Assembly (NCBI RefSeq): GCF_014297445.1
Contig: NZ_JACORU010000001.1
Location: 124,001 to 188,000, forward strand
DNA from: Ramlibacter albus
Lineage (GTDB): Bacteria > Pseudomonadota > Gammaproteobacteria > Burkholderiales > Burkholderiaceae_C
Direction of reading: 5' to 3'
Length of the DNA stretch: 64,000 bases
Shown: positions 16,421 through 48,162 of the stretch, piece after piece
Position numbering within the stretch: position 1 is the stretch's first letter
Layout of the letters: every line of letters begins with the position of its first letter
Position numbers and translations under genes: made by a program
The notes under the pieces: model-generated
Seen by the model: only the letters and a program-made list of their open reading frames with translations
Told to the model about the DNA's origin: nothing
Database searches by the model: none

Positions 16421-18421
16421 TCAGTCCGGCGTAATCGAGGCAAGCAACGCGTTCCGCTCGACAGTCTGCCCTGCCTGGCAGGCCACCGAAGCCACGGTAC
16501 CCTGGCAATCCGAGAGGATCCGCATCTCCATCTTCATCGATTCCAGGATGGCGACCACTGCGCCCTTCTCGACGCGATCCCCCGGCGCGACCTGCACTTT
16601 CAGGATCAGCCCCATCATCGGCGCCTTCATGTCCCCGCTGGCCTGGGACGCGGCGCTGATGTAGGCGAGATAGGGAACCGCCTTCAACACATGGGCGCCG
16701 CGGCAGTCGCGCACGTACAGCATGTCGCCGTCCTGATGGAGGGCCACCCGTTCCCGAAGCGTGTCGCAGACGGCGATCCAATGGCCTTCACCCTCGGCGG
16801 GTTCCAGGCCGATGCGGATCCTCGCAGCGCCGGCACCGACAAGCAGCGCGCCGTCGGCCGTGACCGGGCCGAAGCGGATCTCGGCACTGGCACCATCGGC
16901 GCTTTCGACATGAAGGCTGGGGATCGGCGACAGGCCGTCGTCGTCCGCACGGAGCTGCCACCCGGTGCCTGCCCACGCCGTCCAGGGGCCGCGCTTTCCG
17001 GCATCATCGCGTCGATGCCCGCGCAGCCAGTACGCGGCGGCGATGGCGAGCGTCCGCGAATCCTGGCTCGATCCGCCCAGTGCCCAGCTGCCGATCTGCT
17101 CATCAATCAGCCGCGTGTGGAAGCTTGCCTTGCGAGTCTCGGGCAGGTCGACCAGCCGGCGCAGGAAGCCGATGTTGCTGGTGACGCCGAACACGGTCGT
17201 TTCGCCAAGGGCCAGATCGAGACGGTCCAGGGCTTCGTCACGCGTCGGCGCGTGAGTGATCAGCTTGGCGAGCATCGAGTCATAGAAAGGAGTGACTTCG
17301 CTGCCCGACTCCACGCCCGTCTCGACACGGACGCCGGATCGCGGGAATTCCAATTGGGAGATCCTGCCGGTAGAGGGCAGGAAATTGGCAGCCGGGTCCT
17401 CGGCGCAGATCCGCGCTTCGACGGCATGGCCCCGAATGGCGACGTCTTCCTGGCGGAGCGGTAGCCCCTCGCCGGAAGCGATGCGCATCATCACCTCGAC
17501 GATGTCGATGCCGGTGATCGCTTCCGTGACGGGATGCTCGACCTGCAGGCGAGGGTTGACCTCGAGGAAGTGATACTCGTCCTCACCAACGATGAACTCG
17601 ACCGTGCCCACCCCCCGGTATTTGAGCCGCTGGCCCAGACGCACCGCGTCGGCCGCCATGCGATCGCGCAGCGCCGGATCGAGGTTGGCGGCGGGCGCTT
17701 CCTCGATCACTTTCTGGTGGCGGCGCTGCAAGGTGCACTCGCGTTCGAAGAGATGGATGACCTCGCCCTCGCCGTCGCCGGCAATCTGGATCTCAATGTG
17801 GCGCCCGCGGCGAATGAGCTTTTCCACGATCAGCCCGGCATCGCCGAACGCGTTCTTCGCCTCGCGCATCGCCGACTCGATCTCCTGCTCCAGCCCGTCC
17901 ATCGACTGGATGCCGCGCATGCCCTTGCCGCCGCCGCCTGCGGCCGCCTTGAGCATCACCGGGAGGCCGACACGGCGCACCGTGGCCGCAATCTCCACAG
18001 GGTCCGTGCTGGGCATCTGGCTTCCGGGAACGATGGGAACGCCGGCCGCTTCAGCTTCGCGCTTTGCGGCGGCCTTGTCGCCGAGTCTTTCGATGACCTC
18101 CGGCGTCGGGCCGATGAAGACCAGCCCCGCGGCCTCCACCGCACGGGCGAAGGCCGCGTTCTCCGCGAGGAAGCCGAAACCCGGGTGGATGGCCTCGGCG
18201 GCCACAGCCCGGGCGGCTGCGATCACCGCGTCGATCCGCAAGTAGCTTTGGGCTGCTGCCGCGCCGCCGATTTCGACGGACTCGCCTATTTCCCGGACAT
18301 GCAAGGCATTCCGATCGGCCGCCGAATGCACGCCCGCAGCGGCGACGCCCAGGCGGCGGCAGGTCCTCGCGATGCGGCAGGCGATCTCGCCGCGATTGGC
18401 AATCAGGATCTTGCTGAACAT
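16421..18421 (-). CDS. Acyl-CoA carboxylase alpha subunit (biotin carboxylase + BCCP)
   Basis: A 666-aa protein with the biotin carboxylase opening [20 protein letters not shown], the ATP-grasp glycine loop KAAAGGGGKGMRG (about residue 160), ECTLQRRHQKVIEEAP, and EVNPRLQVEHPVTE. A middle domain of the MCC/PCC type follows, and a C-terminal biotinyl domain has the biotin-accepting Lys in ILESMKMEM. It carboxylates biotin with ATP and bicarbonate. ATG 18421 is chosen because the longer open frame is antisense-like read-through of the upstream gene. It lies 14 nt below the carboxyltransferase at 18436-20007 and probably also serves the protein at 20100-21527. Confidence 0.94.
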   Translation of the reverse strand: MFSKILIANRGEIACRIARTCRRLGVAAAGVHSAADRNALHVREIGESVEIGGAAAAQSYLRIDAVIAAARAVAAEAIHPGFGFLAENAAFARAVEAAGLVFIGPTPEVIERLGDKAAAKREAEAAGVPIVPGSQMPSTDPVEIAATVRRVGLPVMLKAAAGGGGKGMRGIQSMDGLEQEIESAMREAKNAFGDAGLIVEKLIRRGRHIEIQIAGDGEGEVIHLFERECTLQRRHQKVIEEAPAANLDPALRDRMAADAVRLGQRLKYRGVGTVEFIVGEDEYHFLEVNPRLQVEHPVTEAITGIDIVEVMMRIASGEGLPLRQEDVAIRGHAVEARICAEDPAANFLPSTGRISQLEFPRSGVRVETGVESGSEVTPFYDSMLAKLITHAPTRDEALDRLDLALGETTVFGVTSNIGFLRRLVDLPETRKASFHTRLIDEQIGSWALGGSSQDSRTLAIAAAYWLRGHRRDDAGKRGPWTAWAGTGWQLRADDDGLSPIPSLHVESADGASAEIRFGPVTADGALLVGAGAARIRIGLEPAEGEGHWIAVCDTLRERVALHQDGDMLYVRDCRGAHVLKAVPYLAYISAASQASGDMKAPMMGLILKVQVAPGDRVEKGAVVAILESMKMEMRILSDCQGTVASVACQAGQTVERNALLASITPD

Positions 18422-18435
18422 TGATGCGGCCTCGA

Positions 18436-20007
18436 TTACATGCGGAACACGCCGAAGCTCGACGGCTGCAGGGGCACCCGGCCCGCGAGATCGAGCAGCA
18501 ACGCCATCACGTCCCTTGTCTCCGTTGGCTCGATGATCAGGTCGCACCAGGTGTTTCGGGCGAAGTTGTACGCGTTGGCGAAGTCCTCGAAGGTCTTGCG
18601 AACGGGCGCCTTGTAGGCCTCGCGCTCGGCATCCGTCCAGCTTGTGCCATCCCGCTTGTGCTGGTCGTCCTTCACCATGGCAAGGGTCGTGGCGGCCTGC
18701 TCCGGCCCCATGATCGCGGCCCTCCCGTTCGGCCACATCAGCATCGCATTGGGCCTGAATGCGCGGCCGCACATCGCCAGGTAGCCCGCCCCGTACGAGC
18801 CCCCGATGATCAGGGTGTACTTGGGGACGTTGGCGCACGTCATCGCGGTGATCATCTTCGCGCCATGCTTGGCGATCCCGCCCTCCTCCGCTTCGCGGCC
18901 GACCATGAAGCCGTTGATGTCGGCCATGAACAGAAGCGGGATGTCCCGCTTGCAGCACAGGTCGATGAATTGCGTGGCCTTGAGGGCGCTCTCCGAGAAG
19001 AGGACGCCGCTGTTGCAGAGAATTCCGATGTCGAACCCCTGGATGCGCGCGAAACCCGTGATGATGGTCTCGCCGAAATCGGGCTTGAACTCGTGCAGGT
19101 CGCTTCCGTCGATGAGACGCAGCAGGATCTCGCGGTTGTTGGTAGGAACGCGCGGGTCGGCGCTGACGATGCCGTGGATTTCCCGCGGATCGTGCAGGGG
19201 CTCGCGCGGCTCGGCCACGTCGCGGCGCTGCGCCGGCACGTCACCGAGGTGGCCGACCAGGTCGCGCAGGATCGCAATGGCATGCGCGTCGCTTTCGGCG
19301 AGCCTGTCGGTCACACCGTCCTCACGGTTCGAACGCTCGGCGTCGGCCGGCGCCGGCTCGGCGGGGCCGAACGCGAGAGCGCCGCGGCCGCGCACCACGA
19401 CGACTTCGTCGCACATGGCTGCGACGAAAGCGGCAGCGTCCGCCGCAGGGCCGTGGACACTTGCGATTTGCGCGATGCCCTCGCGCGACATCCGCGTCTG
19501 GTTGTACAGGATGGAGCCGAACTGTCCCTCGTCGGCGAAGACACCGGGCTTGGCGCCGGGCTGCTGCGCGCCCGGTTGCAACATCGTCACGCAGGGCAGC
19601 CGTTGCTGCCACGCGAAGCGCTGGGCCCGCACATGGCGCTTGCAGGTGTGCGCGTTGTAGGTGCCGTCGTTGACCGTGGGGTCGCTGGCGATGACCATGC
19701 AGGGGCGGCCGGCGATCATTCCCACGCCGGTGACAACGCCGGCGCCCGGCGGGTCATCGCCGTACAGTCCCTCGCCCGCCAGTTGGCACAGCTCGAGGAA
19801 CGGCGACCCCGGGTCGAGCAGCGCGCGGATGCGTTCGCGCACCGTCAACTGTCCGGCTTCGCGCAGCCTTTGCAGTGCCGTGGCCGAGCCGACGCCCAGG
19901 GCCGCCGAGCGGCGAGCATGGAGGTCGGCCAAGCGGGCTTTGTAGGCGTCCCGGTTGATGCGCATTTCCTCGGGACTCAGGGTCAGGCTGGAGGCGAGGA
20001 TGCTCAT
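18436..20007 (-). CDS. Carboxyltransferase-like beta subunit with degenerate N-domain
   Basis: A 523-aa protein of the acyl-CoA carboxylase beta family. The C-domain is canonical: NSGVLFSESALKATQFIDLC, INGFMVGREAEEGGIAKHGA, the loop GGSYGAGYLAMCGR (402-415) and AAIMGPEQAA. The N-domain is damaged at the active site. The usual GPxTAGGAY reads GPAADAAAF (186-194), so the glycine pair is Ala-Ala; the VDSGGAFLPD segment reads MLQPGAQQPGAKPG; and the ATGExxxxxxLGGAxMH stretch is shortened to PAPADAERSNRE. Lesions elsewhere are few, which argues for specialisation rather than decay. The divergent neighbour at 20100-21527 shows the opposite pattern. ATG 20007 fits the family N-terminus. Confidence 0.9.
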   Translation of the reverse strand: MSILASSLTLSPEEMRINRDAYKARLADLHARRSAALGVGSATALQRLREAGQLTVRERIRALLDPGSPFLELCQLAGEGLYGDDPPGAGVVTGVGMIAGRPCMVIASDPTVNDGTYNAHTCKRHVRAQRFAWQQRLPCVTMLQPGAQQPGAKPGVFADEGQFGSILYNQTRMSREGIAQIASVHGPAADAAAFVAAMCDEVVVVRGRGALAFGPAEPAPADAERSNREDGVTDRLAESDAHAIAILRDLVGHLGDVPAQRRDVAEPREPLHDPREIHGIVSADPRVPTNNREILLRLIDGSDLHEFKPDFGETIITGFARIQGFDIGILCNSGVLFSESALKATQFIDLCCKRDIPLLFMADINGFMVGREAEEGGIAKHGAKMITAMTCANVPKYTLIIGGSYGAGYLAMCGRAFRPNAMLMWPNGRAAIMGPEQAATTLAMVKDDQHKRDGTSWTDAEREAYKAPVRKTFEDFANAYNFARNTWCDLIIEPTETRDVMALLLDLAGRVPLQPSSFGVFRM

Positions 20008-20062
20008 GATTTCGTGCGTTGGAGTGTCAAGTTCGCGTTGCGCGATCCGCGCGACCGGCGCT

Positions 20063-20092
20063 AGAATACCAAACATTTGTTAGGTTAAGCAA
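20063..20092 (-). promoter_or_regulatory. Candidate promoter with operator in the spacer (minus strand)
   Basis: On the minus strand TTGCTT (20092-20087), an 18-nt spacer and TATTCT (20068-20063) precede the carboxyltransferase at 20007. The palindrome-like operator CAAACATTTGTTAG (20070-20083) fills the spacer. Two other sites in this window (48 kb and 55 kb) have the same architecture. Confidence 0.5.
20070..20083. promoter_or_regulatory. Operator-like site A (CTAAC-N4-GTTAG family)
   Basis: CAAACATTTGTTAG, a near match to the 14-bp palindrome CTAAC-N4-GTTAG, lies between the divergent carboxyltransferase genes at 20007 (minus) and 20100 (plus), where it could control both. Related copies are at 25055, 41263, 48171 and 55442. 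The TetR regulator encoded at 48263 is the inferred binder. Confidence 0.6.
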
Positions 20093-20099
20093 CGAACTC

Positions 20100-21527
20100 A
20101 TGAAGCCGAATGCCGAGCCCACCGGCTCCGTTTCGTACGACGGCCTGCTGGCGACCCTGCGCGCTCGCCAACAGGAGGCCCTCGCTGGCGGGTCGGATAA
20201 GGCACGCAAGCTGCACAAGAGCCGAGGGCAGATGCTGCCTCGCGAACGCGTCACCGCGCTGCTCGACCACGGCTCGCCATTTTGCGAGATCGGGCAGCTT
20301 GCGGGGGCCGACATGTACGAGGGCGTGCCGCCCGGCGCGACCATGATCACGGGAGTGGGAAAGGTCTGCGGGCGCTGGTGCATGTTGCTGGTCAACGACG
20401 CCACGGTCAAGGGCGGCACGATGTTCGGCATGACGACAAAGCGCCACACGCGCGCCCAGCTGTTCGCGTGGCGCCACCGCCTGCCCTGCATCACGATGGT
20501 CCAGTCCGGGGGCGGTTTCCTCCCCGACCTCGCGAACATCTTTCCTGACGAGGGCCAGGCCGGCTCCATCATGTACAACCAGGTGAAGATGTCGGCCGAG
20601 GGTATCGCGCAGATTGCCCTTGTCCACGGGCCTTCGACGGCCGGTGGGGCGTATATCCCGGCGCTTTGCGACGAAGTCGTGATCATCCGCAAGCAAGGCG
20701 CCATGTTCCTCGGAAGCCCGCAGCTTGTCTTCGCGGCCACCGGCGAAGTGATCGACATCGAGCCGCTGGGCGGTGCCGAGATGCACAGCCGGGTGAGCGG
20801 CGTGACCGACCACATGGCCGAAGACGACGCGCACGCCCTGTCCATCACCCGGCGGATCGTCGATCATCTCGGCGAGCCGCCCCGCCTGCGGTGGACGCGC
20901 GCTGAAGTCGAATTGCCTCCGGAAGGCGCCGCCGGCAGCGACATCCCCGCAGGGCTCGTGGACGGAGGCCGCTTCCAGGAGTTCAAGCAACTGCATGGCG
21001 AGACACTGACATGCGGTTTCGCGCGCATCGAGGGTTTCGAGGTCGGAATCGTCGGCGCCCGTGGCGAAATCACGGCGCAGGCTGCCGCCAAGGGCGCGCA
21101 CTTCGTGCAGTTGTGCGGCCAGCGCGATATCCCGATCGTCTTCCTCGTCGATTCGCCCGGCTTTGCGGACAGCAGCCTGCCCGGCCAGTCGACCGTGGGC
21201 AGGCACGGAGCCAAGCTGCTGAATGCGGTGGCGAACGTCGATGTGCCGAAGTTCACGGTCATCACCGGCCGCGCCCACGGCGCGGCTTATCACGCGCTGG
21301 GCGGCCGCGCATTCCGCCCTAACGCGCTGCTGATGTGGCCGCAAGCGCGGGCGTCGGCTTCACCCGACGCGCCCGACGAGGAGGCCGGGGCGCTGAACTG
21401 GGCACGGCAGCTGTGGTGCGATGCCATCGTGGAGCCCGGGCAGACGCGTGCGGTTCTGGCGCAGCTGCTCGACATCGCAGGCCGCCTGCCGGCGCGGGCG
21501 AGCAGCTACGGCGCCTTTCGCATGTAG
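20100..21527 (+). CDS. Carboxyltransferase-like beta subunit with degenerate C-domain
   Basis: A 475-aa member of the same family, about 50-60 residues short of normal. The N-domain is canonical: VQSGGGFLPDLANIFPDEGQ, HGPSTAGGAYIPALCDE with the glycine pair at 182-183, and FAATGEVIDIEPLGGAEMHS. The C-domain is altered: GFMVGRxAExxGIAKHGAK becomes GFADSSLPGQSTVGRHGAK, the loop GxSYGAGxxAMCGR becomes GRAHGAAYHALGGR (390-403), and the AIMGPEQAA motif with the following helical segment of about 40 residues is deleted. It is divergent from, and complementary to, the protein at 18436-20007. ATG 20100 is chosen over an earlier frame start that would lie inside the promoter and operator. Its 3' end overlaps the convergent acetoacetyl-CoA synthetase by 22 nt. 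Confidence 0.88.
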   Translation: MKPNAEPTGSVSYDGLLATLRARQQEALAGGSDKARKLHKSRGQMLPRERVTALLDHGSPFCEIGQLAGADMYEGVPPGATMITGVGKVCGRWCMLLVNDATVKGGTMFGMTTKRHTRAQLFAWRHRLPCITMVQSGGGFLPDLANIFPDEGQAGSIMYNQVKMSAEGIAQIALVHGPSTAGGAYIPALCDEVVIIRKQGAMFLGSPQLVFAATGEVIDIEPLGGAEMHSRVSGVTDHMAEDDAHALSITRRIVDHLGEPPRLRWTRAEVELPPEGAAGSDIPAGLVDGGRFQEFKQLHGETLTCGFARIEGFEVGIVGARGEITAQAAAKGAHFVQLCGQRDIPIVFLVDSPGFADSSLPGQSTVGRHGAKLLNAVANVDVPKFTVITGRAHGAAYHALGGRAFRPNALLMWPQARASASPDAPDEEAGALNWARQLWCDAIVEPGQTRAVLAQLLDIAGRLPARASSYGAFRM

Positions 21528-23506
21528 CGCGGCAACTCGCGGGAGAACTCGACGAAGTACTGGAGCGAGTCCGGGTTCATCATCGCGTCGCGGCTGGCCA
21601 CCTTGTCCGGCGCCGCGCCCAGCAGGATCCTGCGCACAGGCACCTCGAGCTTCTTGCCGGTCAACGTGTATGGAATCGCGCCGATGGGGAAGTACTTGTC
21701 GGGCACGTGCCGCGGCGATCCTTGGGAGCGCAGGGCCTGCGTGATCCGCGACTCCATCGCGGCGTCGAGCGCGAAACCCGGCTTCGGCAGGACGAACATC
21801 GGCATGAAGAACTTGCCGTCCGGCAGATCGAGGTTCACGACCAGGCAGTCCTGCACACCCTCGACCGTGTCGGCGATCCGGTAGATTTCTGCCGTCCCGA
21901 TCCGCACCCCGGCACGATTGAGCGTGGCATCCGACCTGCCATAGATGTAGCAGCCCCCGCGACGGTTGACCTTGAAGAAGTCGCCGTGGCGCCATTGGCC
22001 CGGATAGGCATCAAAGTAGCTGTCGAGGTAACGCAAGTTGTCCTTGTCGCCCCAGAAATAGAGCGGCATCGAAGGCATGGGCTTGCGGATCACGAGCTCG
22101 CCGACGCAGTCCTCCAGCGGCAGGCCCTCATCGTCGAGCGCATGCGCGTCGACGCCCAGCAGGCGCGTCTGGATTTCGCCCGCGTGTACGGGCAGCGTGG
22201 GTGCGGCACCCACGAAGGCCGAGCACACGTCGGTCCCGCCACTTTGCGAAGTCACCCAAAGGTCCTGTTTGACCTCGCGATAGAACCACTCGAAAGTTTC
22301 CGGTGTCGCAGGAGAGCCGCCCAGCAGCACTGATTCCAGCGCGGACAGGTCGTACTTCTGCGCGGGCCGAACCCCGGCCTTGATCATCATCTGCACGAAT
22401 GTCGGGCTGGCGCCGAACATCGTCACCCGGTGTTCCGCCGCGATCTGCCAGAGGCGCTCCGGCTGCGGCGCGAGGGGGTTGCCGTCGTACAGGACGATGC
22501 TGCCGCCCTGGGACAGCGCCATGACCATGAAGTTGAACATCATCCAGCCCGTGGTCGTATAGAAGAACAGGCAGGAATCGGGACTCTGGTTGGCGTGGAA
22601 GGCCATGACCTTGCAGGTCTCGAGCGTCATCCCGCCGTGGCCGTGAGTCATCGCTTTCGGCAGCCCCGTCGTTCCCGACGAGTACAGGATCCACAGCGGG
22701 TGCGAGAACTCGACATCCTCGTAGCGAAAGTCCTCGTGCCGCACGGGCCGCTCCCCCATCACCTCCGACCAGAAACGCGAGGACGGTGTCGGACGCGGCG
22801 CGGCCGGGTTCAGATCGGGCAGGAAGACCACATGTTCCAGCGAGGGCAGGCCCTCGACGAGTCGAGCCAGTTCGCCGGTGCGATCGAAGTCCTTCCCGCC
22901 GAATCGATAGCCGTCCACCGCAAATAGCAGCCGCGGCTCGATTTGCTGGAAGCGGTCGAGGATGCTGCGTGCGCCGAAGTCGGGCGAGCACGCCGACCAG
23001 ATCGCGCCGATCGCAGTGGTCGCGAGCAGCGCTATTACCGCCTCGGGCGTGTTGGGCAGGGTCGAGACCACCCGGTCGCCCGGCCGGATGCCCATGCGGC
23101 GCATGGCTTCGGCCAGCGTCGCCACCTGGTCGCGCAGGTCTTCCCAGTGCAGGGTGGCGGGTGGGCGAATCTCGCTGCGATGGTGGATCGCGGGCCGCCC
23201 TCGCTGCCCCTTGTGAAGCATGTGCCGGGCGAAGTTCACCCGCGCGCCGGGGAACCAGACCGCGCCCGGCATGACGCGCTCCTCCAGGACGCACGAGTGA
23301 GGTGTCGACGATTCGATCCCAAAGTAATCCCACAGGGCGGCCCAGAAATCCTCGATGCGGTCGACGGACCATTCCCAGAGCGAGGCGTGGCCAGGGAAAT
23401 CGAGCCCCCGCTCCCGGCGCAGCCAGTCCATGAACAACGCCACTTGCGAAGACTGCGCGAAGTCGGGACGTGGCGTCCAGAGCAGTTCACCTTCCTTGAC
23501 CGCCAT
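21506..23506 (-). CDS. Acetoacetyl-CoA synthetase
   Basis: A 666-aa ANL-superfamily ligase that would make acetoacetyl-CoA from acetoacetate, CoA and ATP through an acyl-AMP. It has the AcsA/AACS-type N-terminal domain (WEWSVDRIEDFWAALWDYF, WFPGARVNFA), the P-loop YSSGTTGLPKAMTHGHGG, WMMFNFMV, the GGTDVCSAF motif, WRHGDFF and a C-terminal TGKKLEVPVR lysine loop. Length and motifs match acetoacetyl-CoA synthetase rather than acetyl-CoA synthetase. A GAGGAG ribosome-binding site precedes ATG 23506, which overlaps the hydrolase stop by 20 nt. An HMG-CoA-lyase-family gene at 41504 could supply acetoacetate. Confidence 0.9.
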   Translation of the reverse strand: MAVKEGELLWTPRPDFAQSSQVALFMDWLRRERGLDFPGHASLWEWSVDRIEDFWAALWDYFGIESSTPHSCVLEERVMPGAVWFPGARVNFARHMLHKGQRGRPAIHHRSEIRPPATLHWEDLRDQVATLAEAMRRMGIRPGDRVVSTLPNTPEAVIALLATTAIGAIWSACSPDFGARSILDRFQQIEPRLLFAVDGYRFGGKDFDRTGELARLVEGLPSLEHVVFLPDLNPAAPRPTPSSRFWSEVMGERPVRHEDFRYEDVEFSHPLWILYSSGTTGLPKAMTHGHGGMTLETCKVMAFHANQSPDSCLFFYTTTGWMMFNFMVMALSQGGSIVLYDGNPLAPQPERLWQIAAEHRVTMFGASPTFVQMMIKAGVRPAQKYDLSALESVLLGGSPATPETFEWFYREVKQDLWVTSQSGGTDVCSAFVGAAPTLPVHAGEIQTRLLGVDAHALDDEGLPLEDCVGELVIRKPMPSMPLYFWGDKDNLRYLDSYFDAYPGQWRHGDFFKVNRRGGCYIYGRSDATLNRAGVRIGTAEIYRIADTVEGVQDCLVVNLDLPDGKFFMPMFVLPKPGFALDAAMESRITQALRSQGSPRHVPDKYFPIGAIPYTLTGKKLEVPVRRILLGAAPDKVASRDAMMNPDSLQYFVEFSRELPRYMRKAP

Positions 23507-24392
23507 CGGGGCTCCTCTCTTGGTCTTTCATCGCTCGCTCACGGCCGCCGGCACAGCGGGTGACGAAACCGGAAATCAGCTCATTGACGGCGTCGGCCGC
23601 CTCGAAGGCGACCCAGTGGCCTGCGTCCGGGACCACGCGGCAGACGATGTGCGACGCGCATTGCCGAAGGTAGGCGGCGCGGGCCTGCGTATCCGGCCGG
23701 GGAAGCGGATCGCACGCGGGCAGGATCGCGAGGACCGGGCATTGCACTTTCTGCAGGCTCGGCCCCAGGGTATCCCGGTAGCCGAGGTAGCGCGACTTGA
23801 AGCGGGTCATCGCATGGTTGCGCCGCTGCATGGCAACCGTCATTTCGTCGATGCGCTCCGGCCTGGAGATCATCATCATCCCGAGGTTCGCGCGATGGAT
23901 GGCGTTGGCTTCCTCATCACTCGCGCCCGGCGGGACGGCCCTGAGCGGAGGGCGATGCCAGCCTTCGGGGGGAAAGCCCCCCGGGGCGAGCAGGCAGGTC
24001 GCGAACACGTCTCGGGGCCGGCGCGCTGCGAGCCATGCCGCGACGACCCCGCCCCAGGAAAATCCAGCGACGGCAAACTTCCGGCCCGACGGAATCAGAC
24101 CGGCGTCGATCGCGGCAAGAAGATATCGGCCATATCCATCCAGGTCGGTGTCTCGCGGGACGTCCAAGGATTCACCCATGCCGGGGAGGTCCGGAATCAC
24201 CAGGCTGAACCTGCGCGACAGCGGTTCGATGTTGCGCACCCAATGCGTCCACGATCCCGTGCCGCCATGCAGGAGCAGCAGTGTCGGGCCGCTGCCGACT
24301 CTCACCGCCTTGACGCCTGCGACCACGGTGCGCTCGATCCGCAACGCCGGAAAGAACACCTCGGGCCGGATGTCGTGGGGGAGGCCCGTCAA
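23487..24392 (-). CDS. Alpha/beta-fold hydrolase with TTG start
   Basis: A 301-aa hydrolase: oxyanion region LLLLHGGTGSWTHWVRN, nucleophile elbow GFSWGG, acid residue in CDPLPRP and catalytic His in AGHWVAFE. No ATG exists in this frame before 24569, which lies inside the preceding MaoC gene. A strong GGAGGAG sits 6 nt upstream of TTG 24392, and that TTG overlaps the stop of a small upstream ORF as TTGA, so I place the start there. It is a paralog of the hydrolase at 8921-9748. It may cleave a C-C bond or a thioester; the substrate is unknown. Confidence 0.85.
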   Translation of the reverse strand: MTGLPHDIRPEVFFPALRIERTVVAGVKAVRVGSGPTLLLLHGGTGSWTHWVRNIEPLSRRFSLVIPDLPGMGESLDVPRDTDLDGYGRYLLAAIDAGLIPSGRKFAVAGFSWGGVVAAWLAARRPRDVFATCLLAPGGFPPEGWHRPPLRAVPPGASDEEANAIHRANLGMMMISRPERIDEMTVAMQRRNHAMTRFKSRYLGYRDTLGPSLQKVQCPVLAILPACDPLPRPDTQARAAYLRQCASHIVCRVVPDAGHWVAFEAADAVNELISGFVTRCAGGRERAMKDQERSPDGGQGR

Positions 24393-35636: not shown

Positions 35637-36788
35637 TTAAATCCGTTTCGCCACTTCCTCGAGCATGACTTCAGTCGCGCCTCCACCGATGGCTTCCACC
35701 CGGGCATCGCGCACCATGCGTTCGATCGCCGCCTCCCGCATGTAGCCGAAGCCTCCGTGGAATTGCTGACAGTCGTAGAGCACATCGTTGACCAACTCGC
35801 CGCAGAAAGCCTTGACCATCGAAACCTCCTTCACGCAGTCCCTGCCCTGCGCGTCCAGCCACGCGCAGTGGTAGACGAGCGCGCGCCCGGCTTCGACCTG
35901 CGCTGCACGCATCGCCAGGCGCTGGCGGATCGCCTGCTTGTCCCACAGCGGGGCTCCGAAGGCCTTGCGGTCGCGCACGTATTGCACCGTCATCTCGATC
36001 GCCCGCGCGGCCTCGCCCATCGCCGCGGCACCGATCACCATGCGTTCGTTCTGGAAGTTGCGCATGATCTGGTAGAAGCCCTTGTTCTCACCGCCGAGCA
36101 GGTTGGCGGCGGGAATGCGGCAGTTTTCGAACACCAGTTCGGCGGTGTCGCTGCACAGCCAGCCGCTCTTCTCCAGCGCGCGCCCGACGCGAAAGCCCGG
36201 CGTGCCCTTCTCGACGATGAAGATCGAGATGCCGCGCGAGCCCTTGGCGCTCGGGTCTGTCTTGGCGCCGACGAAGTACACGTCGCCGTGCACGCCGTTC
36301 GTGATGAACATCTTGGTGCCGTTGAGCACCCAATGATCGCCGTCGCGCACCGCGCGGGTTCGGATGCCGGCCACATCAGATCCGGCATCGGGCTCGGTCA
36401 CCGCGACCGCGCAGACCTGCTCGCCGCGCGTCAGCGGCGGCAGGTAGCGCTGCAGCTGCTCGGGGCTGCCGAAGTTGGCCAAGTGCGGGGAGGCCATGTC
36501 GGTGTGCACGGTGACCGTGACCGCGAAGCCGCCGAAGGTCGAACGGCCCAGCTCCTCGGCCAGGATCGCGCTGTACACGGTGTCGAGCTCGGATCCACCG
36601 TACTTCTCGGGGTAGCGGACACCCAGGTAGCCGAGCTCGCCCATCTGGCGCAGCACCTCGCGCGGCACCTTGCCGGCCTTCTCCCAGGCGCCGGCCTTCG
36701 GCACGACCTCCTGCTCGACGAAGCGGCGCAGGTTGTCGCGGAACTGGCGGTGTTCCTCGGTGAAATAGATCGGATCGTTCATGCTCAT
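35637..36788 (-). CDS. Acyl-CoA dehydrogenase (isovaleryl-CoA dehydrogenase-like)
   Basis: A 383-aa dehydrogenase with YPEKYGGSELDTVYSAIL, VCAVAVTEPDAGSDVAGI, KMFITNGVHGDVYF, RKAFGAPLWDKQAIRQ and QQFHGGFGYMREA. The position of the classical catalytic Glu reads IGGGATEV, so the base is probably in the helix used by isovaleryl-CoA-type enzymes. With the adjacent carboxylase alpha (36785), methylglutaconyl-CoA-hydratase-like protein (38809), carboxylase beta (39627) and lyase (41504) it completes a liu-like leucine/isovalerate gene set. ATG 36788 overlaps the alpha stop by 4 nt. Confidence 0.92.
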   Translation of the reverse strand: MSMNDPIYFTEEHRQFRDNLRRFVEQEVVPKAGAWEKAGKVPREVLRQMGELGYLGVRYPEKYGGSELDTVYSAILAEELGRSTFGGFAVTVTVHTDMASPHLANFGSPEQLQRYLPPLTRGEQVCAVAVTEPDAGSDVAGIRTRAVRDGDHWVLNGTKMFITNGVHGDVYFVGAKTDPSAKGSRGISIFIVEKGTPGFRVGRALEKSGWLCSDTAELVFENCRIPAANLLGGENKGFYQIMRNFQNERMVIGAAAMGEAARAIEMTVQYVRDRKAFGAPLWDKQAIRQRLAMRAAQVEAGRALVYHCAWLDAQGRDCVKEVSMVKAFCGELVNDVLYDCQQFHGGFGYMREAAIERMVRDARVEAIGGGATEVMLEEVAKRI

Positions 36789-38794
36789 GTCGCACCCTCG
36801 GGTTCGATCGCCACCAGTACATCGCCACCGCGCACTGAATCGCCGACACGGCACCGCAGCTCGGCCACCGTGCCAGTGGCCGGCGCGGCCAGCGTGTGCA
36901 TCATCTTCATGGCTTCCAGGATCAGCACGGCATCGCCGGCTTGCACCCGGGCGCCGATCGAGGTCGAGACAGCGGTCACCAGCCCGGGCATCGGCGCGCG
37001 CAGCGTGGTGCTCGCCGCGGCGCTGCTGGCCGCGGCTCCGGCCAGGGCGTGGGCGGTGCGGTCGATGTGCGTCCAGACGTGCGTGCCCCTCGGCCCATGG
37101 AGCCAGACACGGTTGGCGGAGCCTTCGCGCGCTCGCAAGAAGCGATGCCGCTCCCGGCCACTTTCAATTTCAACCTCCAAGTGACCGGCGTCGAGCCGGG
37201 CGCCGCAGGTGAACCGCCGCTCGCCGATCTCGATGTGCCACACAGCGCTGTCCTGCCGGACGAGCGCCGTGTGCAGGTGATGGGCGGAATCTTCGAGCAG
37301 CACCGGCATAGCCACCGGCGCCGCCGGGCCGAGCAGTCGCCAAGCGCCCAATGCCACCCAAGGTGAGGCTTGCGCCGGCGCCTGTGCGGCCAGCGCGCAA
37401 CCGAGAGCACCTAGCGCGAGTGCTTTCAGTCCGTCGCCTCCTGGCTCCCAGCCCCCGGGGAAGCTGCGCTCGATGTAGTGGGTAGTCAGCATGGCGTCGA
37501 AGGCCGGTGCGCGCAGCAAGTCGGTCAGGAAGCCGATGTTGCTGCGAACCCCGATGAGTTCGAAGCGATCGAGCGCGCCCGCCAGCCTATGGGCAGCCAG
37601 CGGCCGGGTATCGGCGAACGCGATCACCTTCGCAAGCATCGAGTCGTAGAACGGGGTCACCTCGCTGCCGGCACAAACGCCGCTGTCGACACGCACGCCC
37701 TCGCCTGCGGGCTCGGTGTACCCGACGATGGTGCCGATCTCCGGCACAAATCCCTTGGCTGGATCTTCGGCGCAGACCCTGGCCTCGATCGCCCAGCCCC
37801 GCCGCCCGATCTGCTGCTGGTTGAACGCGAGTGGTTCGCCCGCGGCCACGCGCAGTTGCCATTCGACGAGGTCGATGCCCACCGTCGCCTCGGTGACGGG
37901 ATGCTCCACCTGCAGCCGCGTGTTCATTTCGAGGAAAAAGGTGTCGCCACTGGCTGCGTCGTGGATGAATTCGACGGTCCCGGTGGAGTCGTAGCCGATG
38001 GCGTTGCCCACCGCGAGCGCGTGGCGAAACAGGGCTTCGCGCTGCGACTCAGAGAGGTTGGCCGCCGGGGCTTCCTCGATCACCTTCTGGTGGTTGCGCT
38101 GGATCGAACACTCACGCTCGAAGAGGTGGACCAGGTGGCCGTGCTTGTCGCCCAGCAGTTGGACCTCCAGGTGGCGCGGCTCGCCAAGGTACCGCTCGAG
38201 AAGCACGCTGTCGTCCCCGAACGAGGCTTTGGCCTCGCGGCGCACCGTCTCGAGCGCGGCGGTGAACTCGGCAGCCGACTGCACCACCCGCATGCCTTTG
38301 CCGCCTCCCCCCGCCGAGGCCTTGATCATGACCGGATAGCCGACGCGCCCGGCGGCCTCGGCGAGCGCCGCCGGCGCCTGGTCGTCGCCGTGATAGCCAG
38401 GCACCACCGGCACGCCGTGTTCGACCGCGATGCGCTTGGACTCGATCTTCGAGCCCATGCGGCGGATTGCTTCCCGCGAGGGTCCGACGAAGACAATGCC
38501 TGCCCGCTCGCAAGCTTCGATCAGCGCCGGGCTCTCGGACAGGAAGCCGTAGCCAGGATGCACGGCCTGCGCGCCGCTCGCCTGCGCCGCAGCGATGATG
38601 GCGGCCGCGTTCAGGTAGCTGCGGGCCGCCTCCGCAGGGCCGATACGAACGGCCGCGTCGCACTCGGCGACGTGCCGCGCGCGGCGATCGGCGTCCGAGT
38701 ACACGGCAACGCTGCGCATGCCCAGGCGCCGCGCGGTTCGGGCAATGCGGCAGGCGATCTCCCCGCGGTTGGCGATGAGCAAGGTGTCGAACAT
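36785..38794 (-). CDS. Acyl-CoA carboxylase alpha subunit (liu-like module)
   Basis: A 669-aa protein with the biotin carboxylase opening [20 protein letters not shown], the glycine loop IKASAGGGGKGMRVVQS, ECSIQRNHQKVIEEAPAANL and EMNTRLQVEHPVTEATVGID. The middle domain follows, and the biotinyl domain has the modified Lys in ILEAMKMMHTL. It is the partner of the beta subunit at 39627-41216. ATG 38794 is 14 nt below the hydratase stop; the longer frame is read-through. Neighbour content suggests methylcrotonyl-CoA or a related 3-methyl-enoyl-CoA as substrate. Confidence 0.94.
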   Translation of the reverse strand: MFDTLLIANRGEIACRIARTARRLGMRSVAVYSDADRRARHVAECDAAVRIGPAEAARSYLNAAAIIAAAQASGAQAVHPGYGFLSESPALIEACERAGIVFVGPSREAIRRMGSKIESKRIAVEHGVPVVPGYHGDDQAPAALAEAAGRVGYPVMIKASAGGGGKGMRVVQSAAEFTAALETVRREAKASFGDDSVLLERYLGEPRHLEVQLLGDKHGHLVHLFERECSIQRNHQKVIEEAPAANLSESQREALFRHALAVGNAIGYDSTGTVEFIHDAASGDTFFLEMNTRLQVEHPVTEATVGIDLVEWQLRVAAGEPLAFNQQQIGRRGWAIEARVCAEDPAKGFVPEIGTIVGYTEPAGEGVRVDSGVCAGSEVTPFYDSMLAKVIAFADTRPLAAHRLAGALDRFELIGVRSNIGFLTDLLRAPAFDAMLTTHYIERSFPGGWEPGGDGLKALALGALGCALAAQAPAQASPWVALGAWRLLGPAAPVAMPVLLEDSAHHLHTALVRQDSAVWHIEIGERRFTCGARLDAGHLEVEIESGRERHRFLRAREGSANRVWLHGPRGTHVWTHIDRTAHALAGAAASSAAASTTLRAPMPGLVTAVSTSIGARVQAGDAVLILEAMKMMHTLAAPATGTVAELRCRVGDSVRGGDVLVAIEPEGAT

Positions 38795-38808
38795 GCCCGT
38801 TTCCCCGC

Positions 38809-39618
38809 TCAACCCTGGCGCCACGGCGGTGGGCGACGCGCGAAGAAGGCCTCGATGCCAGCCCGGCCTTCCTCGGTCTCCCAGGCATCGGCCAGCTTGT
38901 CGGCGGCGTAGATCATGCTGGTCGGAAGATCGTGGCTGTTTACGTACGAAACGAGCCTCTTGGTCGCGGCCACCGCGCCCGGTGCGCACTGCATCAGGTC
39001 GGCGAGCTCCCGTTCCACCGCGGCGTCGAGCTGGTCGGCAGGGACGATCTCCGAAACCAGCCCAAGCCTGCGCGCCTCCGCAGCGTCCATGCGGCGTGCC
39101 GTGAGAAACGTGCGCCGGGCGTTGGCCTCGCCCATCCGCGCCACGACGTACGGGGAGATGTTCGCCGGGAGCAACCCCAACCTGACTTCGGTGAGGCAGA
39201 AGACGCCGGTGTCCACCGCGACGGACACGTCGCACACCGAGATCATGCCCACCCCGCCTCCGTAGGCTGCACCGTTGATGCGACCGATGAGCGGCACCGG
39301 CAGTTCATTCAGCGTGCGCAACATCAGCGCAAGCTCGAAACTCTCGTCGACGCGCTCGGAACGCGTCTTGCTCATGTTCTGCTGCATCCAACCGAGGTCG
39401 CCACCGGCGCAGAAGGTGGCCCCGGCGCCTGTGAGGACGACAGCGCGAAGGCCCGGGGAGCAACCCAGCCAGTCTGCGGCCTGCTTCAGGTCGGCGATCA
39501 AGGCGGCATTCAATGCGTTGTGCGTATCGGGGCGGTTCAGCGTCAGCGTGGCGATCCGTCGCTGGTCGACCGCGAGCAGCAGCGTATCGAAGGCCGGAGG
39601 AGTCGTCGGTGTCGTCAT
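38809..39618 (-). CDS. Methylglutaconyl-CoA hydratase-like crotonase
   Basis: A 269-aa crotonase. The signature ATFCAGGDLGWMQQN, the helix AYGGGVGMISVCDVSVAV and the active-site stretch CLTEVRLGLLPANISPYVV match LiuC/AUH-type methylglutaconyl-CoA hydratases. These keep only the second catalytic Glu (TEVRLG) and have Gly at the first, as here. It would hydrate the product of the neighbouring carboxylase to a 3-hydroxy-3-methyl acyl-CoA for the lyase at 41504. ATG 39618 is chosen because the upstream extension lies inside the carboxyltransferase 3' region. Confidence 0.9.
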   Translation of the reverse strand: MTTPTTPPAFDTLLLAVDQRRIATLTLNRPDTHNALNAALIADLKQAADWLGCSPGLRAVVLTGAGATFCAGGDLGWMQQNMSKTRSERVDESFELALMLRTLNELPVPLIGRINGAAYGGGVGMISVCDVSVAVDTGVFCLTEVRLGLLPANISPYVVARMGEANARRTFLTARRMDAAEARRLGLVSEIVPADQLDAAVERELADLMQCAPGAVAATKRLVSYVNSHDLPTSMIYAADKLADAWETEEGRAGIEAFFARRPPPWRQG

Positions 39619-39626
39619 GGGCGGCC

Positions 39627-41216
39627 TCACATGCGGTAAACCGGCGTTGCGGTCTGCGGCGGCACGCGACGGGTGCACAACGAGAGCGCCAGCGCGAGCA
39701 CGTCGCGTGACGACGACGGGGCTATGAGTCCGTCGTCCCAGAGCCTTGAAGTGGCGTAGTAAGGGTCCGTCTGGCGCTGGTACTGCTCGCGCACCGCGCG
39801 TTCGGTCTCCGCCATCCTCGCCTCATCGGCTGGCCCTCGCAGGTTGGATCTTGCCAGTTCCAGCATGACATTGCTCGCGATGTCGGCGCTCATCGTCGCC
39901 ACCTGAGCGCTCGGCCAAGCGAACAGGAACTCGGGCTCGAATCCCCGGCCACACATGCCGTAGTTGCCGGCGCCGTAGGAGCCCCCCACGATCAGCGTTA
40001 GCTTCGGGACGCGCGCGCAACTGACCGCATAGACCATGTTCGCACTGTGCTTGGCGATGCCCGCGCGCTCGGCTTCGCTTCCGACCATGAACCCGGCGAT
40101 GTTTTGGAGAAAAAGCAGCGGGACGCCACGTTGGTTGGCCAACTCGATGAAATGGGTGCCCTTGAGCGCCGCCTCTGCCACGAGGGCGCCGTTGTTCCCG
40201 AGGATGCCGACCGGGTATCCGTGGATCGAACCGAACCCGGCGACCAGCTGGCTGCCCCAGTCGGGTTTGAACTCGTGCAGGTCACTGTCGTCGACGAGGC
40301 GCGCGATGATCTCGCGCGCGTCATAAGGCTGCTTGGGATCGGCGGGCACCAGGCCATCGAGCTGCGCGGGGTCGTACCTCGGCGGACATGGGACGCGCGG
40401 CGGCGGTGGAAGATGAGCAGGCGGCAGGCTCCCGACGATTTCGCGCAGTCGCGCCAGCGCCTGAGGCTCGCTCTCAGCCAGATGGTCGTTGACGCCTGAG
40501 ATTCGCGTGTGCATTTCTGCGCCCCCCAAGGTCTCGCCATCCACCGTCTCGTTTATGGCGATCTTCACGATCGACGGGCCGCCGAGGTGGATGCGCGCGG
40601 TGCCGCGCACCATAACGACTTCGTCCGAAAGTGCGGGGATGTAGGCGCCCCCCGCCGTGCATCCACCGAACACCGCGGAAATCTGCGGAACCCTATCCTG
40701 CGACATGCGGCACTGCTGGAAGAAGTTGTTGCCGAAGTGATCGCGATCGGGAAACACACGGTCCTGTTCGGGCAGGAAGGCACCACCGCAGTCCACGAGG
40801 TACAAAACCGGAAGGCGCAGGCGCCAGGCGATCTCCTGCGCGCGGCGGTGCTTCTTGACGGTTTCATGGAAGAACGAGCCGCCTTTCACCGTGGCGTCGT
40901 TTGCGATGAACATGCAAGGCTGGCCGGCGACGATGCCGATGCCAGTTACGACACCGGCGGCAGGAACCTCGTTACCGTACTGGCCCCAGGCGGCGAGCGG
41001 CGAGAGTTCCAGGAATGCCGCAGCGTCATCGACAACCAAGTCGATGCGCTCACGCGCCAACATCTTTCCGCGTGCGCGATGCCGCGCAATATGGGCATCG
41101 CGCCCGCCCATGGCCACGTGAGCCAGCCGCTCTCGCAACTGGGCGATGTCGTTCGCCCTGAGCTCGGTCGTGGCCGCGCCTACCGAGCCGTCGAAGCTGC
41201 TGTTGATCACGGCCAA
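39627..41216 (-). CDS. Acyl-CoA carboxylase beta subunit, MCC-type (TTG start)
   Basis: A carboxyltransferase of about 529 aa with both half-sites intact: VDCGGAFLPEQDRVFPDRDH and GGCTAGGAYIPALSDEV in the N-domain; NNGALVAEAALKGTHFIEL, IAGFMVGSEAERAGIAKHSA and VGGSYGAGNYGMCGRGF in the C-domain. The frame is open far upstream, but no ATG is suitable. TTG 41216 has GAGG 10 nt upstream and lies about 25 nt below the inferred transcription start; GTG 41210 is the alternative. It pairs with the alpha subunit at 36785. Operator C and a TAGAAT -10 precede it. Confidence 0.9.
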   Translation of the reverse strand: MAVINSSFDGSVGAATTELRANDIAQLRERLAHVAMGGRDAHIARHRARGKMLARERIDLVVDDAAAFLELSPLAAWGQYGNEVPAAGVVTGIGIVAGQPCMFIANDATVKGGSFFHETVKKHRRAQEIAWRLRLPVLYLVDCGGAFLPEQDRVFPDRDHFGNNFFQQCRMSQDRVPQISAVFGGCTAGGAYIPALSDEVVMVRGTARIHLGGPSIVKIAINETVDGETLGGAEMHTRISGVNDHLAESEPQALARLREIVGSLPPAHLPPPPRVPCPPRYDPAQLDGLVPADPKQPYDAREIIARLVDDSDLHEFKPDWGSQLVAGFGSIHGYPVGILGNNGALVAEAALKGTHFIELANQRGVPLLFLQNIAGFMVGSEAERAGIAKHSANMVYAVSCARVPKLTLIVGGSYGAGNYGMCGRGFEPEFLFAWPSAQVATMSADIASNVMLELARSNLRGPADEARMAETERAVREQYQRQTDPYYATSRLWDDGLIAPSSSRDVLALALSLCTRRVPPQTATPVYRM

Positions 41217-41248
41217 GGACGGTTCCTCACAAGTAGCTCGATAACGCC

Positions 41249-41254
41249 ATTCTA
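41249..41254 (-). promoter_or_regulatory. Candidate -10 element of an internal promoter
   Basis: TAGAAT on the minus strand lies in the 287-nt gap between the lyase gene and the carboxylase beta gene, just downstream of operator C. No convincing -35 is visible. It may give the liu-like genes separate transcription from the rest of cluster VIII. I see no coding sequence in this gap. Confidence 0.4.
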
Positions 41255-41262
41255 GAATTGAA

Positions 41263-41276
41263 CTAACACTTGGTAG
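41263..41276. promoter_or_regulatory. Operator-like site C (CTAAC-N4-GTTAG family)
   Basis: CTAACACTTGGTAG, almost identical to site B (CTAACAGTTGGTAG), lies about 47 nt upstream of the carboxylase beta start. It would place the liu-like genes under the same regulator as the gene blocks near 20, 25, 48 and 55 kb. Confidence 0.6.
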
Positions 41277-41503
41277 TTTATCGGGAGTCGACCTCTTGCG
41301 CCACCGTTCCGGCAACCGACTGCAGTAGCTTCGCGATGATTTCGTCAAGCCGTCACGTGCTCGCCGCGGCTCGAAGGCTAACTGACGCGGCCTCTCCCGA
41401 CAATTGACCCCACTGATGCCAAATTCATCCGGCACGACGGCATCGCTTCGCCCGGCCCATGGATACCGTGAGGACGCACCGTGGATAGCATCCCGGCACG
41501 GTA

Positions 41504-42475
41504 CTACCGGATCGCTTCGCGCGGATGGCGCATCGACGCGAGCGTGCCACTGCGCATCAACCGGCCGTTCAGGGGCCGCCCGATGATGCGCTCGGCCAGC
41601 CGGGCTGCCTCCACGAGTTGCTCGAGATCGAGGCCGGTCTCGACCCCCATCTCCTCGCACATGAACGCCATGTCCTCGGTACAGATATTGCCTGCGGCGT
41701 CGCCATGCTTGTGACCAGCGAAAGGACATCCCCCGAGCCCCGCAACGGAGCTGTCGAACAGGTCCACCCCCATTTTCAAGGCGGCATAGACGTTCGCGCC
41801 TCCGACACCGCGCGTGTCATGCAGGTGCAGCCCGATGCGCGCTTGCGGCACGAGTTCGCGCACGGCGCCGATGCGGCGTTTGATCTCCTCGGGGTTGGCC
41901 CAGCCCATGGTATCCGCCAGGTAGAACGCTGGGAAGGGAACTCCCCTGTCGGTGCAGGCGTCGACCAGCCACCGGACGACGTCGGTCACCGCCGACACCG
42001 GCACGGGCCCGCCGAGGTTGCAGCCGAATGCGGTGACGACATACGCCTGCTCGAACGGGATGCCCAGCGCGATGTACCGATCGATCCACTTCAGCTGACG
42101 TTCGCGATTCTCGGCAACACTGCAGTTGTTGTTCCGCTGCGAAAACGGTTCCGTGACGTAGAAGACGACTTTGCCGTCGATGTCGATGTTGTCGCAGGCC
42201 CTGGCACGCTCGAAGCCGCTTTCGTTGAGCCAGAGCCCGGTGTAGCGCGTCCCCGGCCGCTTGCGAAGCCTCGCGAACAACTCCGCTGAGTCCGCCATCT
42301 GCGGCACGGCCCGCGGGCTCACGAACGACGCGCACTGCACCTGCCTGAGGCCCGACGCCGCAAGCGCATCGATCAGCGCCAGCCGTTCGTCCAGCGGATA
42401 GGTGGAGGGCTCCATCTGGAAGCCCTCGCGCGGTCCCTCTTCGTGAAACTCGACCCGGCGCGGCAGCGAACCCAT
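41504..42475 (-). CDS. Hydroxymethylglutaryl-CoA lyase family protein
   Basis: A 323-aa TIM-barrel lyase that would split a 3-hydroxy-3-methylglutaryl-type CoA ester, classically to acetoacetate and acetyl-CoA. The opening EEGPREGFQMEPS replaces the usual GPRDGLQ, so the metal-ligand Asp is Glu. The metal histidines (LHLHDTRGVGGAN), the catalytic Cys loop (AGLGGCPFAGHKHGDAAGN) and ICTEDM are kept. CTGAAGGAGATC precedes ATG 42475. It lies 14 nt below the carboxylase alpha at 42490. The altered opening suggests a side branch of the family, possibly with a different acyl chain. Confidence 0.88.
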   Translation of the reverse strand: MGSLPRRVEFHEEGPREGFQMEPSTYPLDERLALIDALAASGLRQVQCASFVSPRAVPQMADSAELFARLRKRPGTRYTGLWLNESGFERARACDNIDIDGKVVFYVTEPFSQRNNNCSVAENRERQLKWIDRYIALGIPFEQAYVVTAFGCNLGGPVPVSAVTDVVRWLVDACTDRGVPFPAFYLADTMGWANPEEIKRRIGAVRELVPQARIGLHLHDTRGVGGANVYAALKMGVDLFDSSVAGLGGCPFAGHKHGDAAGNICTEDMAFMCEEMGVETGLDLEQLVEAARLAERIIGRPLNGRLMRSGTLASMRHPREAIR

Positions 42476-42489
42476 TCTTTCGATCTCCT

Positions 42490-44514: not shown

Positions 44515-44525
44515 GATGGCCTGCC

Positions 44526-46133: not shown

Positions 46134-46153
46134 TCAGACAGCTCCGCGCGCTT

Positions 46154-46942
46154 TCAGGACCTGAAGACCGGCGGCCGGCGGGTCTCGAACGCAGCCAAGC
46201 CTTCGGTAACATCGTCGTTGAGCAGTTCGCGTGAAATCAGATCCTGCTCGAACACCAAACCTTCGGGCAGCGGCCGGTCGAGTCCCTGACGGGCCAGCCG
46301 CTTCATGGCGGCCAGTCCGGGCCGGCTGCGCGACGCCAGCTGAACGCAGTAAGCCATCGACGCTTCAGCGAGCTTGCCGGGTTCGACGACGTAGTTGACG
46401 AGGCCCCATGCCAGCGCAGTGGGCGCGTCGATCCAGCGCGCGCTGTAGAGCAGGTCGAGCGCGCGCCGCACGCCCACGATTCGCGGCAACCGCTGGGAAC
46501 CGCCCCAGCCCGGCACCAGCCCGTATTGCGCATGCTGGTCCCCGATACGGAAATCGCTCGAAGCGAAGATCACGTCGCAGGCCATCATCAACTCGCTGCC
46601 GCCCGCCAGCGCGAGGCCCTGGCACGCCGCGACTACGGGCAGCTCGCTGGCTTCCAGACGCTGCAGGACGGAGTGACCGTAGCGGATGAAGTGTTCGATG
46701 TCGGCGGGTGAGCTTCGCAGTTTCTTGACTTCGTCGAGATCGGCGCCCGTGCAGAAGTGCTTGCCCTGCGCGCGGATCAGGGCGGCGCGAATGCCCGAGC
46801 CGGGCGCCTCGAACTCATCCAGGGCAGCGGCGATCGCGCCATGGACCTCCAGCGACAGGCAGTTGAACTTGTCGGGACGAGCCAGCTCGATCACGCCGAC
46901 GGCCCCATCGCGATTCACCAGGATGGAAGGCGGCGCGCTCAC
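46154..46942 (-). CDS. Enoyl-CoA hydratase/isomerase family protein (GTG start)
   Basis: A 262-aa crotonase: RPDKFNCLSLEVHGAI, KHFCTGADLDEVKKL, LALAGGSELMMACDVIFAS and YGLVPGWGGSQRLPRIVG. The first catalytic Glu is kept (GGSEL), while the second position reads GDQHAQYGL, with His or Gln in place of Glu. The open frame extends upstream through the dehydrogenase gene, but GTG 46942 overlaps that gene's stop as GTGA and has GGAGAA 6 nt above. It is coupled to the AliB-like dehydrogenase, so it probably acts on that enzyme's enoyl-CoA product. Confidence 0.88.
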   Translation of the reverse strand: MSAPPSILVNRDGAVGVIELARPDKFNCLSLEVHGAIAAALDEFEAPGSGIRAALIRAQGKHFCTGADLDEVKKLRSSPADIEHFIRYGHSVLQRLEASELPVVAACQGLALAGGSELMMACDVIFASSDFRIGDQHAQYGLVPGWGGSQRLPRIVGVRRALDLLYSARWIDAPTALAWGLVNYVVEPGKLAEASMAYCVQLASRSRPGLAAMKRLARQGLDRPLPEGLVFEQDLISRELLNDDVTEGLAAFETRRPPVFRS

Positions 46943-48105: not shown

Positions 48106-48162
48106 CGGGACTCCTCGGGGGGTATGCGGGCAGCGCAGTTGGCAAAGCGGACAACCAATGCT

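Follow-up and report, generated by a model that had tools for sequence, protein, structure and literature searches.

The window analysed here, a stretch of 64,000 nucleotides from Ramlibacter albus (contig NZ_JACORU010000001.1, positions 124,001 to 188,000), contains two adjacent genes, A and B, which code for carboxyltransferase (CT) beta chains of the kind found in 3-methylcrotonyl-CoA carboxylase (MCC) and geranyl-CoA carboxylase (GCC). Each chain has kept one half of the active site and lost the other, and the losses are complementary. The best explanation overall, and very probably the correct one, is that the two chains would work only together, as an obligate hetero-oligomer of A and B in which each dimer has a single live site, N(B)/C(A), made by the N-domain of B and the C-domain of A and fed by an alpha subunit. 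The genes concerned are the following:

18436..20007, minus strand: gene A, MCC-type carboxyltransferase beta chain, C-domain (biotin) half-site intact, N-domain (acyl-CoA) half-site eroded
20100..21527, plus strand: gene B, MCC-type carboxyltransferase beta chain, N-domain (acyl-CoA) half-site intact, C-domain (biotin) half-site eroded
16421..18421, minus strand: alpha subunit, biotin carboxylase and biotin carrier domain (ESMKME at 16526-16543), directly 3' of A

A and B are transcribed divergently, both reading frames are open at these coordinates (523 amino acids in A, 475 in B), and every motif quoted in the initial annotation of the locus was located. On the same strand, 14 bases past the stop codon of A, the alpha gene begins at position 18421.

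Complementary lesions and substitution rates

A pattern search through 84,980 species genomes, which detects close relatives only, returned 18 A loci (L001-L018), 74-93% identical and all titled as Burkholderiales or members of that order. A second B-like gene, B', adjoins B in L001-L007 and L019 and is also found on the contig fragment L079. The alignment comprised 17 A, 17 B and 9 B' sequences together with intact relatives, numbered after the MCC beta chain of Pseudomonas aeruginosa (3u9r); the A fragments of L017 and L018, the B fragment of L011 and the broken B' of L010 were left out of the alignments and of the domain trees. In the window copy of A, the motifs that matter are:

19426..19452, minus strand: GPAADAAAF, replacing the N-domain oxyanion motif GPSTAGGAY
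19333..19374, minus strand: AFGPAEPAPADAER, shortened stretch with the ATGE/LGGAxMH loop lost (12 residues net)
18763..18804, minus strand: intact C-domain loop GGSYGAGYLAMCGR
18691..18717, minus strand: intact AIMGPEQAA

The initial annotation described A as a chain with an intact C-domain and a lost N-domain half, and this pattern is kept across all 17 A sequences. T209, A210, G211 and H258 of the N-domain are altered in every one of them, the uniform lesions being T209A, A210D, the deletion of the loop and the loss of H258; positions 242-252 are deleted throughout, and the window copy is 12 residues shorter in net terms. On the other side of the chain, the C-domain loop is identical in 17/17, and so is GPEQAA, save for an alternation of Glu and Asp. 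The glycine pair of the N-domain is more variable: position 211 is Ser in nine A sequences, Ala in five, Ile in two and Val in one, and position 212 is Ala in ten, Gly in four and Leu in three. The annotated Ala-Ala pair is therefore correct for the window copy (GPAADAAAF) and not uniform over the clade, and it was rejected as the chief lesion of A since four of the 17 retain one Gly. In the PDB entry 8zv3 (human propionyl-CoA carboxylase, PCC; G202A/G203A according to its title) the mutated sites, placed by alignment end coordinates, lie no more than one position away from the glycine pair that A has lost.

The corresponding motifs of B are:

20628..20660, plus strand: intact N-domain motif GPSTAGGAYIP
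20736..20786, plus strand: intact stretch from ATGE to LGGAEMH
21267..21308, plus strand: altered C-domain loop GRAHGAAYHALGGR
21345..21389, plus strand: C-domain deletion junction (36 residues net, 3u9r positions 466-501)

GPSTAGGAY, ATGE and LGGAEMH are identical in the 17 B sequences. Positions 466-501 are missing in 14 of these 17 and in all nine B', with the window copy 36 residues shorter in net terms; in the three B genes of Extensimonas (L012-L014) a few unrelated residues are left at 466-474 and positions 475-501 are missing. Judging from the alignment, this C-domain deletion is the decisive lesion of B. The altered loop is weak evidence when taken alone, because four otherwise intact relatives of the 65249 type (L039, L083, L084 and L085) all read Ala-Ala-Ala at the C-domain oxyanion positions 438-440, where MCC has Gly-Ala-Gly; for this comparable change, it was rejected as the chief lesion. 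The earlier view of B as a chain with an intact N-domain and a damaged C-domain holds through its motifs and the deletion (with one variant form), and loses the loop as independent evidence. The complementary lesions are common to 17 A and 17 B, and a pattern retained across so many sequences is not one of chance. In the metagenome bin L010 (4672-6226), B' lies in three frames whereas A, B and alpha are open.

The same asymmetry is found when the chains are compared half by half. Among the columns invariant in 27 intact relatives, A retains 33 of 63 in the N-domain and 46 of 49 in the C-domain (15 distinct sequences; Fisher p 8e-7), B retains 60/63 and 29/49 (15 distinct sequences; p 3e-6), and B' 59/63 and 32/49 (seven distinct sequences; p 0.0002). 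The ratio of mean nonsynonymous divergence (dN) in the N-domain to that in the C-domain is 3.69 in A, 0.38 in B and 0.50 in B'; in two small intact groups it is 0.72 (four sequences) and 1.07 (three sequences). Across 119 matched genome pairs, A is faster in the N-domain in 118 and B is faster in the C-domain in 118. Stem lengths in the domain trees are 0.57 (N) and 0.11 (C) for A, and 0.061 (N) and 0.61 (C) for B. Shared ancestry does not produce this contrast, since it sits inside a single gene and a single tree.

Relative to synonymous divergence (dS), dN/dS is 0.277 in the N-domain and 0.151 in the C-domain of A, and 0.126 and 0.282, respectively, in B (132 pairs each). All halves of both chains, including the dead ones with a dN/dS of about 0.28, are under purifying selection, which a purely structural role of the dead halves would explain. 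Relaxation at the remaining half-sites, named in the initial annotation as a sign against its reading, was not found: in A it is the C-domain that evolves more slowly, in B the N-domain. These values bear directly on the idea that A and B are functionless duplicates in decay, which is extremely improbable. In its favour, each chain has one half with a rate above that of intact relatives, and two metagenome bins hold damaged genes (a B' in several frames in L010, a divided alpha in L008); nevertheless, the aligned A and B frames are open, dN/dS stays at 0.13-0.28 in every half, and the motif positions of the intact half-sites are invariant. Pseudogene decay was rejected on the open frames and the dN/dS values, and the lesions, being common to the whole clade, are old and maintained.

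Predicted fold, co-occurrence and the proposed enzyme

Both proteins match the carboxyl transferase domain PF01039 (A, 346.5 bits over residues 49-506; B, 312.1 bits over residues 40-418). The single-chain AlphaFold2 models have a mean pLDDT (predicted local distance difference test) of 83.6 for A and 87.1 for B. Compared as whole chains, the A model gives template modelling (TM) scores of 0.90 with the MCC beta chain, 0.89 with that of GCC and about 0.42 with PCC, and the B model 0.88, 0.84 and about 0.47, respectively. A second aligner gave, against MCC beta, a Z of 46.9 and a root-mean-square deviation (rmsd) of 2.2 over 510 residues for A, and a Z of 46.4 and an rmsd of 2.3 over 456 residues for B; against whole PCC chains the rmsd was at least 22. 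In the models, the connectivity of the N- and C-domains is thus of the MCC/GCC type and not of the PCC type. The lineage with MCC-type connectivity is said, in excerpts of one study, to act on unsaturated acyl-CoAs by carboxylating their gamma carbon (PMC4673880), and on the predicted folds A and B would be assigned to it. The same excerpts describe a long N-terminal helix that is not in PCC (PMC4673880); in the models a helix spans residues 12-38 of A and another residues 13-29 of B, the B model having low confidence before residue 11. The long helices 435-453 and 459-476 of the A model are missing from the B model. Neither chain carries both half-sites, A being without the N-half and B without the C-half, and the pair together has both; the single domain per chain of AccA and AccD is not seen, as A and B have two domains in sequence and in model.

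We infer the complex, its stoichiometry, activity and substrate as follows. A and B would be paralogues that serve as beta chains in a single biotin-dependent carboxylase belonging to the MCC/GCC lineage. They would go back to the duplication of an intact, homo-oligomeric ancestor, after which A would have lost the acyl-CoA half-site and B the carboxybiotin half-site. In the MCC lineage, two chains of a dimer contribute to each CT site, one with its N-domain and the other with its C-domain, as work on glutaconyl-CoA decarboxylase and MCC is reported to show. Excerpts of a report on acetyl-CoA carboxylase likewise describe its CT as a head-to-tail dimer with the active site at the interface and an N-domain that binds acyl-CoA (PMC11735997). 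An A-B dimer would accordingly contain the live site N(B)/C(A), with acyl-CoA bound by N(B) and carboxybiotin by C(A), and a dead site N(A)/C(B). No live site would exist in a dimer of two A or of two B chains. That the losses complement each other speaks in its own right for sites shared between chains, because with sites formed within a chain neither gene could function. The core, most likely A3B3 as the simplest fit to the beta6 architecture, would be loaded by the alpha chain encoded behind A.

The distribution of the genes agrees with such mutual dependence. B adjoins A divergently in all 16 A loci with upstream sequence, and alpha lies 3' of A in 18/18 loci (in two pieces in L008 and L017, cut by the contig end in L009). 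In the metagenome bin L008 (9590-11415), alpha aligns in two pieces, without residues 283-337 of the window alpha. Among 399 sampled genomes of the same family, A-clade genes (at least 73% identity) occur in eight and B-clade genes (at least 75%) in the same eight; in none of the 399 was A found without B or B without A. The two surveys appear to have drawn on one sample, as the listed genome handles coincide. Among 399 genomes of the order, an A-clade gene occurs in the R. albus genome only, and among 439 plasmid records only relatives below 60% identity were found, the best listed at 55.3%. The genome surveys scored the best few candidates per genome with strict cut-offs, which leaves distant relatives uncounted. 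The initial annotation had proposed that homologues of either gene regularly found without the other would speak against it, and none appeared in the family sample.

These observations also bear on whether each chain could have taken up a function of its own, B as an acyl-CoA-binding enzyme or sensor of the crotonase fold and A as a biotin-side protein, in separate homo-oligomers that share no active site. The fold retained in the single-chain models and the strong conservation of the remaining half-site of either chain would suit this idea. It is unlikely, given that the conserved residues are those of a carboxylation site, that the losses are exactly complementary, and that A and B were not found apart in the family genomes.

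Some points weigh against the A-B enzyme, or at least qualify it. An intact relative of the 65249 type, 60-61% identical, is present in all eight genomes that carry A and B, so a link between the pair and that enzyme may exist. The cited evidence for an inter-chain site comes from the acetyl-CoA carboxylase CT dimer, the MCC-lineage site being general background; passages of PMC7835884 and PMC10148081 examined for the active-site interface did not describe it. One Gly of the N-domain pair survives in 4 of 17 A, and the full inactivity of the N-half of A consequently rests on several lesions jointly. Finally, mean dS differs between the halves of A (0.55 N against 0.31 C), so that mutation or the alignment may account for some of the dN contrast in A, although dN/dS still differs (0.277 against 0.151).

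The first of these points invites the reading that A, B or both are built into a mixed core together with the intact 65249-type beta chain, where they would be inactive or would alter the specificity. Besides the eight genomes with A and B, G452 is the only other among those listed with a relative above the cut-off (58%), a distribution that favours this arrangement. It is nonetheless very unlikely: the 65249-type gene is found elsewhere in the genome, beside an alpha homologue of its own (54% to the window alpha, in L070), and A and B have an adjacent alpha of theirs.

Origin of the pair and comparison with known carboxylases

The nearest intact relatives of the A-B pair are found in a single genome, G011. 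They are L072 for A (support 93/93; truncated by the contig end) and the tandem pair L071 for B and B' (100/99), in a tree that also includes seven wrong-strand MCC rows (L028, L029, L030, L033, L034, L036 and L037), which form a false long clade. Given the survival of these intact sister genes, the probable order of events is duplication followed by complementary decay. Intermediates were looked for in one genome of the G011 family, G011 itself. The N- and C-domain trees are free of the seven faulty rows, and exclude W2605, W39627, L020, L021 and 11 of the 13 MCC-like genome rows. The N-domain tree does not resolve the branching among A, L072 and the 65249 type, the last standing near A; in the C-domain tree the 65249 type shifts to the B side. 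In L006 and L007 (4849-6276), the C-domain of B' clusters with B and not with other B' (97/84), and its N-domain clusters with B'; gene conversion is possible there.

Regarding known systems, the beta chains of MCC, GCC and AccD1 resemble A and B in sequence family, predicted single-chain fold, N-C connectivity and the possession of their own biotin carboxylase/carrier alpha chain, and the helix in the A model may correspond to their long N-terminal helix. In MCC and GCC, however, a single beta chain bears both half-sites, whereas here they are spread over two chains, each with the other half eroded. The pair would be MCC-like in its working, yet neither chain has the two half-sites that define MCC and GCC, which points to a new form of this kind of enzyme. 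AccA and AccD of bacterial acetyl-CoA carboxylase, the single-domain products of a gene split, carry the half-sites on two proteins as proposed for A and B; the latter are two-domain chains that would have reached a similar state by half-site decay and not by splitting. The division of the CT subunit into two parts in the AccA/AccD lineage is described in excerpts of PMC3199775. In the long-chain acyl-CoA carboxylase of mycobacteria, two distinct beta chains, AccD4 and AccD5, interact in one holo complex, according to excerpts of its description (PMC4347857); these belong to a PCC-like lineage, whose whole-chain fold A and B match poorly. A and B, for their part, co-occur in genomes and may form a mixed core of that kind. 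General models derive obligate heteromers from duplicated homomers, with duplication followed by mutual dependence (PMC11066126, PMC6711710). What would set A and B apart from them is a reciprocal loss within one composite active site, readable half by half. No carboxylase with complementary dead half-sites was found in open-access titles and abstracts, a limited search since the subscription literature lies mostly outside it.

The pair looks like a natural obligate hetero-oligomer built by complementary decay inside a composite active site. With intact sisters persisting in a related genome, the step from homomer to heteromer becomes testable with real intermediates, and a second route, beside gene splitting, is suggested to the two-chain CT known from bacterial acetyl-CoA carboxylase. 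For engineering, the location of the acyl and biotin halves on separate chains may allow retargeting by the swap of one subunit. For annotation, it is a warning that A or B alone is probably inactive, though both match the carboxyltransferase family.

Substrate gate, intergenic site and neighbouring genes

The residue that may govern the choice of substrate lies in the intact half of B:

20553..20582, plus strand: GQAGSIMYNQ, residue 3 (Ala154) aligned with the substrate gate Phe191 of human MCC

Phe191 of MCC (Gly162 in GCC) is described in excerpts of PMC4673880 as a gate for larger substrates; the paper gives human numbering explicitly for the alpha chain, and human residue 191 (chain 8j4z) aligns with Ala154 of B. 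The gate residue is Phe in 13/13 MCC-like genome rows, in both PDB rows, in 17/17 A and in 10 of the 12 intact relatives that have it, the exceptions being the G011 pair, with one Gly and one Ala. It is Ala in all 17 B and Gly in all nine B', and neither the MCC rule (Phe) nor the GCC rule (Gly) fits B. With Ala or Gly in place of Phe, B and B' probably accept acyl groups larger than those MCC takes, and the two would also not be alike in this. The substrate of the A-B enzyme would be a beta-branched alpha,beta-unsaturated acyl-CoA larger than 3-methylcrotonyl-CoA. More tentatively, and at somewhat less than even odds, the system could be modular: a biotin-side A would work with exchangeable acyl-side chains, B and B', differing at the gate (Ala versus Gly), the decay of half-sites having freed the acyl half to duplicate and re-specialise with the biotin half untouched, and the dead N(A)/C(B) interface would perhaps serve a structural or regulatory role.

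Between A and B lies a short conserved sequence:

20068..20083, minus strand: conserved 16-base site CTAACRAATGTTTGKT in the A-B intergenic region, probable operator

One exact copy is found in each of 18 A-B intergenic regions (L001-L016, L019 and the window). In the genome of R. albus, the exact sequence occurs once, in the A-B region, and four copies have two mismatches; the reversed control gave none. One two-mismatch copy, at window 48169-48184, coincides in part with the start of an acyl-CoA dehydrogenase gene that has a TetR-family regulator gene (48263-48886) as its neighbour, and from this position a TetR-type operator is a fair guess. Copies with three mismatches are seen at window 25053, 41261, 48173 and 55440, with six matches against 0.35 expected. 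A scan of 19900-20250 for consensus promoters and terminators found nothing.

Two other genes are frequent neighbours of the pair:

21506..23506, minus strand: acetoacetyl-CoA synthetase, frequent but inconstant neighbour (9 loci including the window)
23490..24389, minus strand: alpha/beta hydrolase, frequent neighbour

The synthetase gene is on the strand opposite to B, and the 3' ends of both overlap; its presence would fit an MCC-like route ending in acetoacetate. Beyond B, A and alpha, the neighbours differ from locus to locus, and family searches of the flanking genes gave general acyl-CoA enzymes only, no substrate being named from them. A has 14 matches in the whole genome, two of which are parts of B, and the window holds three more CT genes, at 2605, about 39630 and 44526. 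A second carboxylase cluster spans window positions 36785-48177, with two CT genes, two biotin carboxylase genes, a gene resembling 3-hydroxy-3-methylglutaryl-CoA (HMG-CoA) lyase and an acyl-CoA dehydrogenase gene; L086 is arranged similarly.

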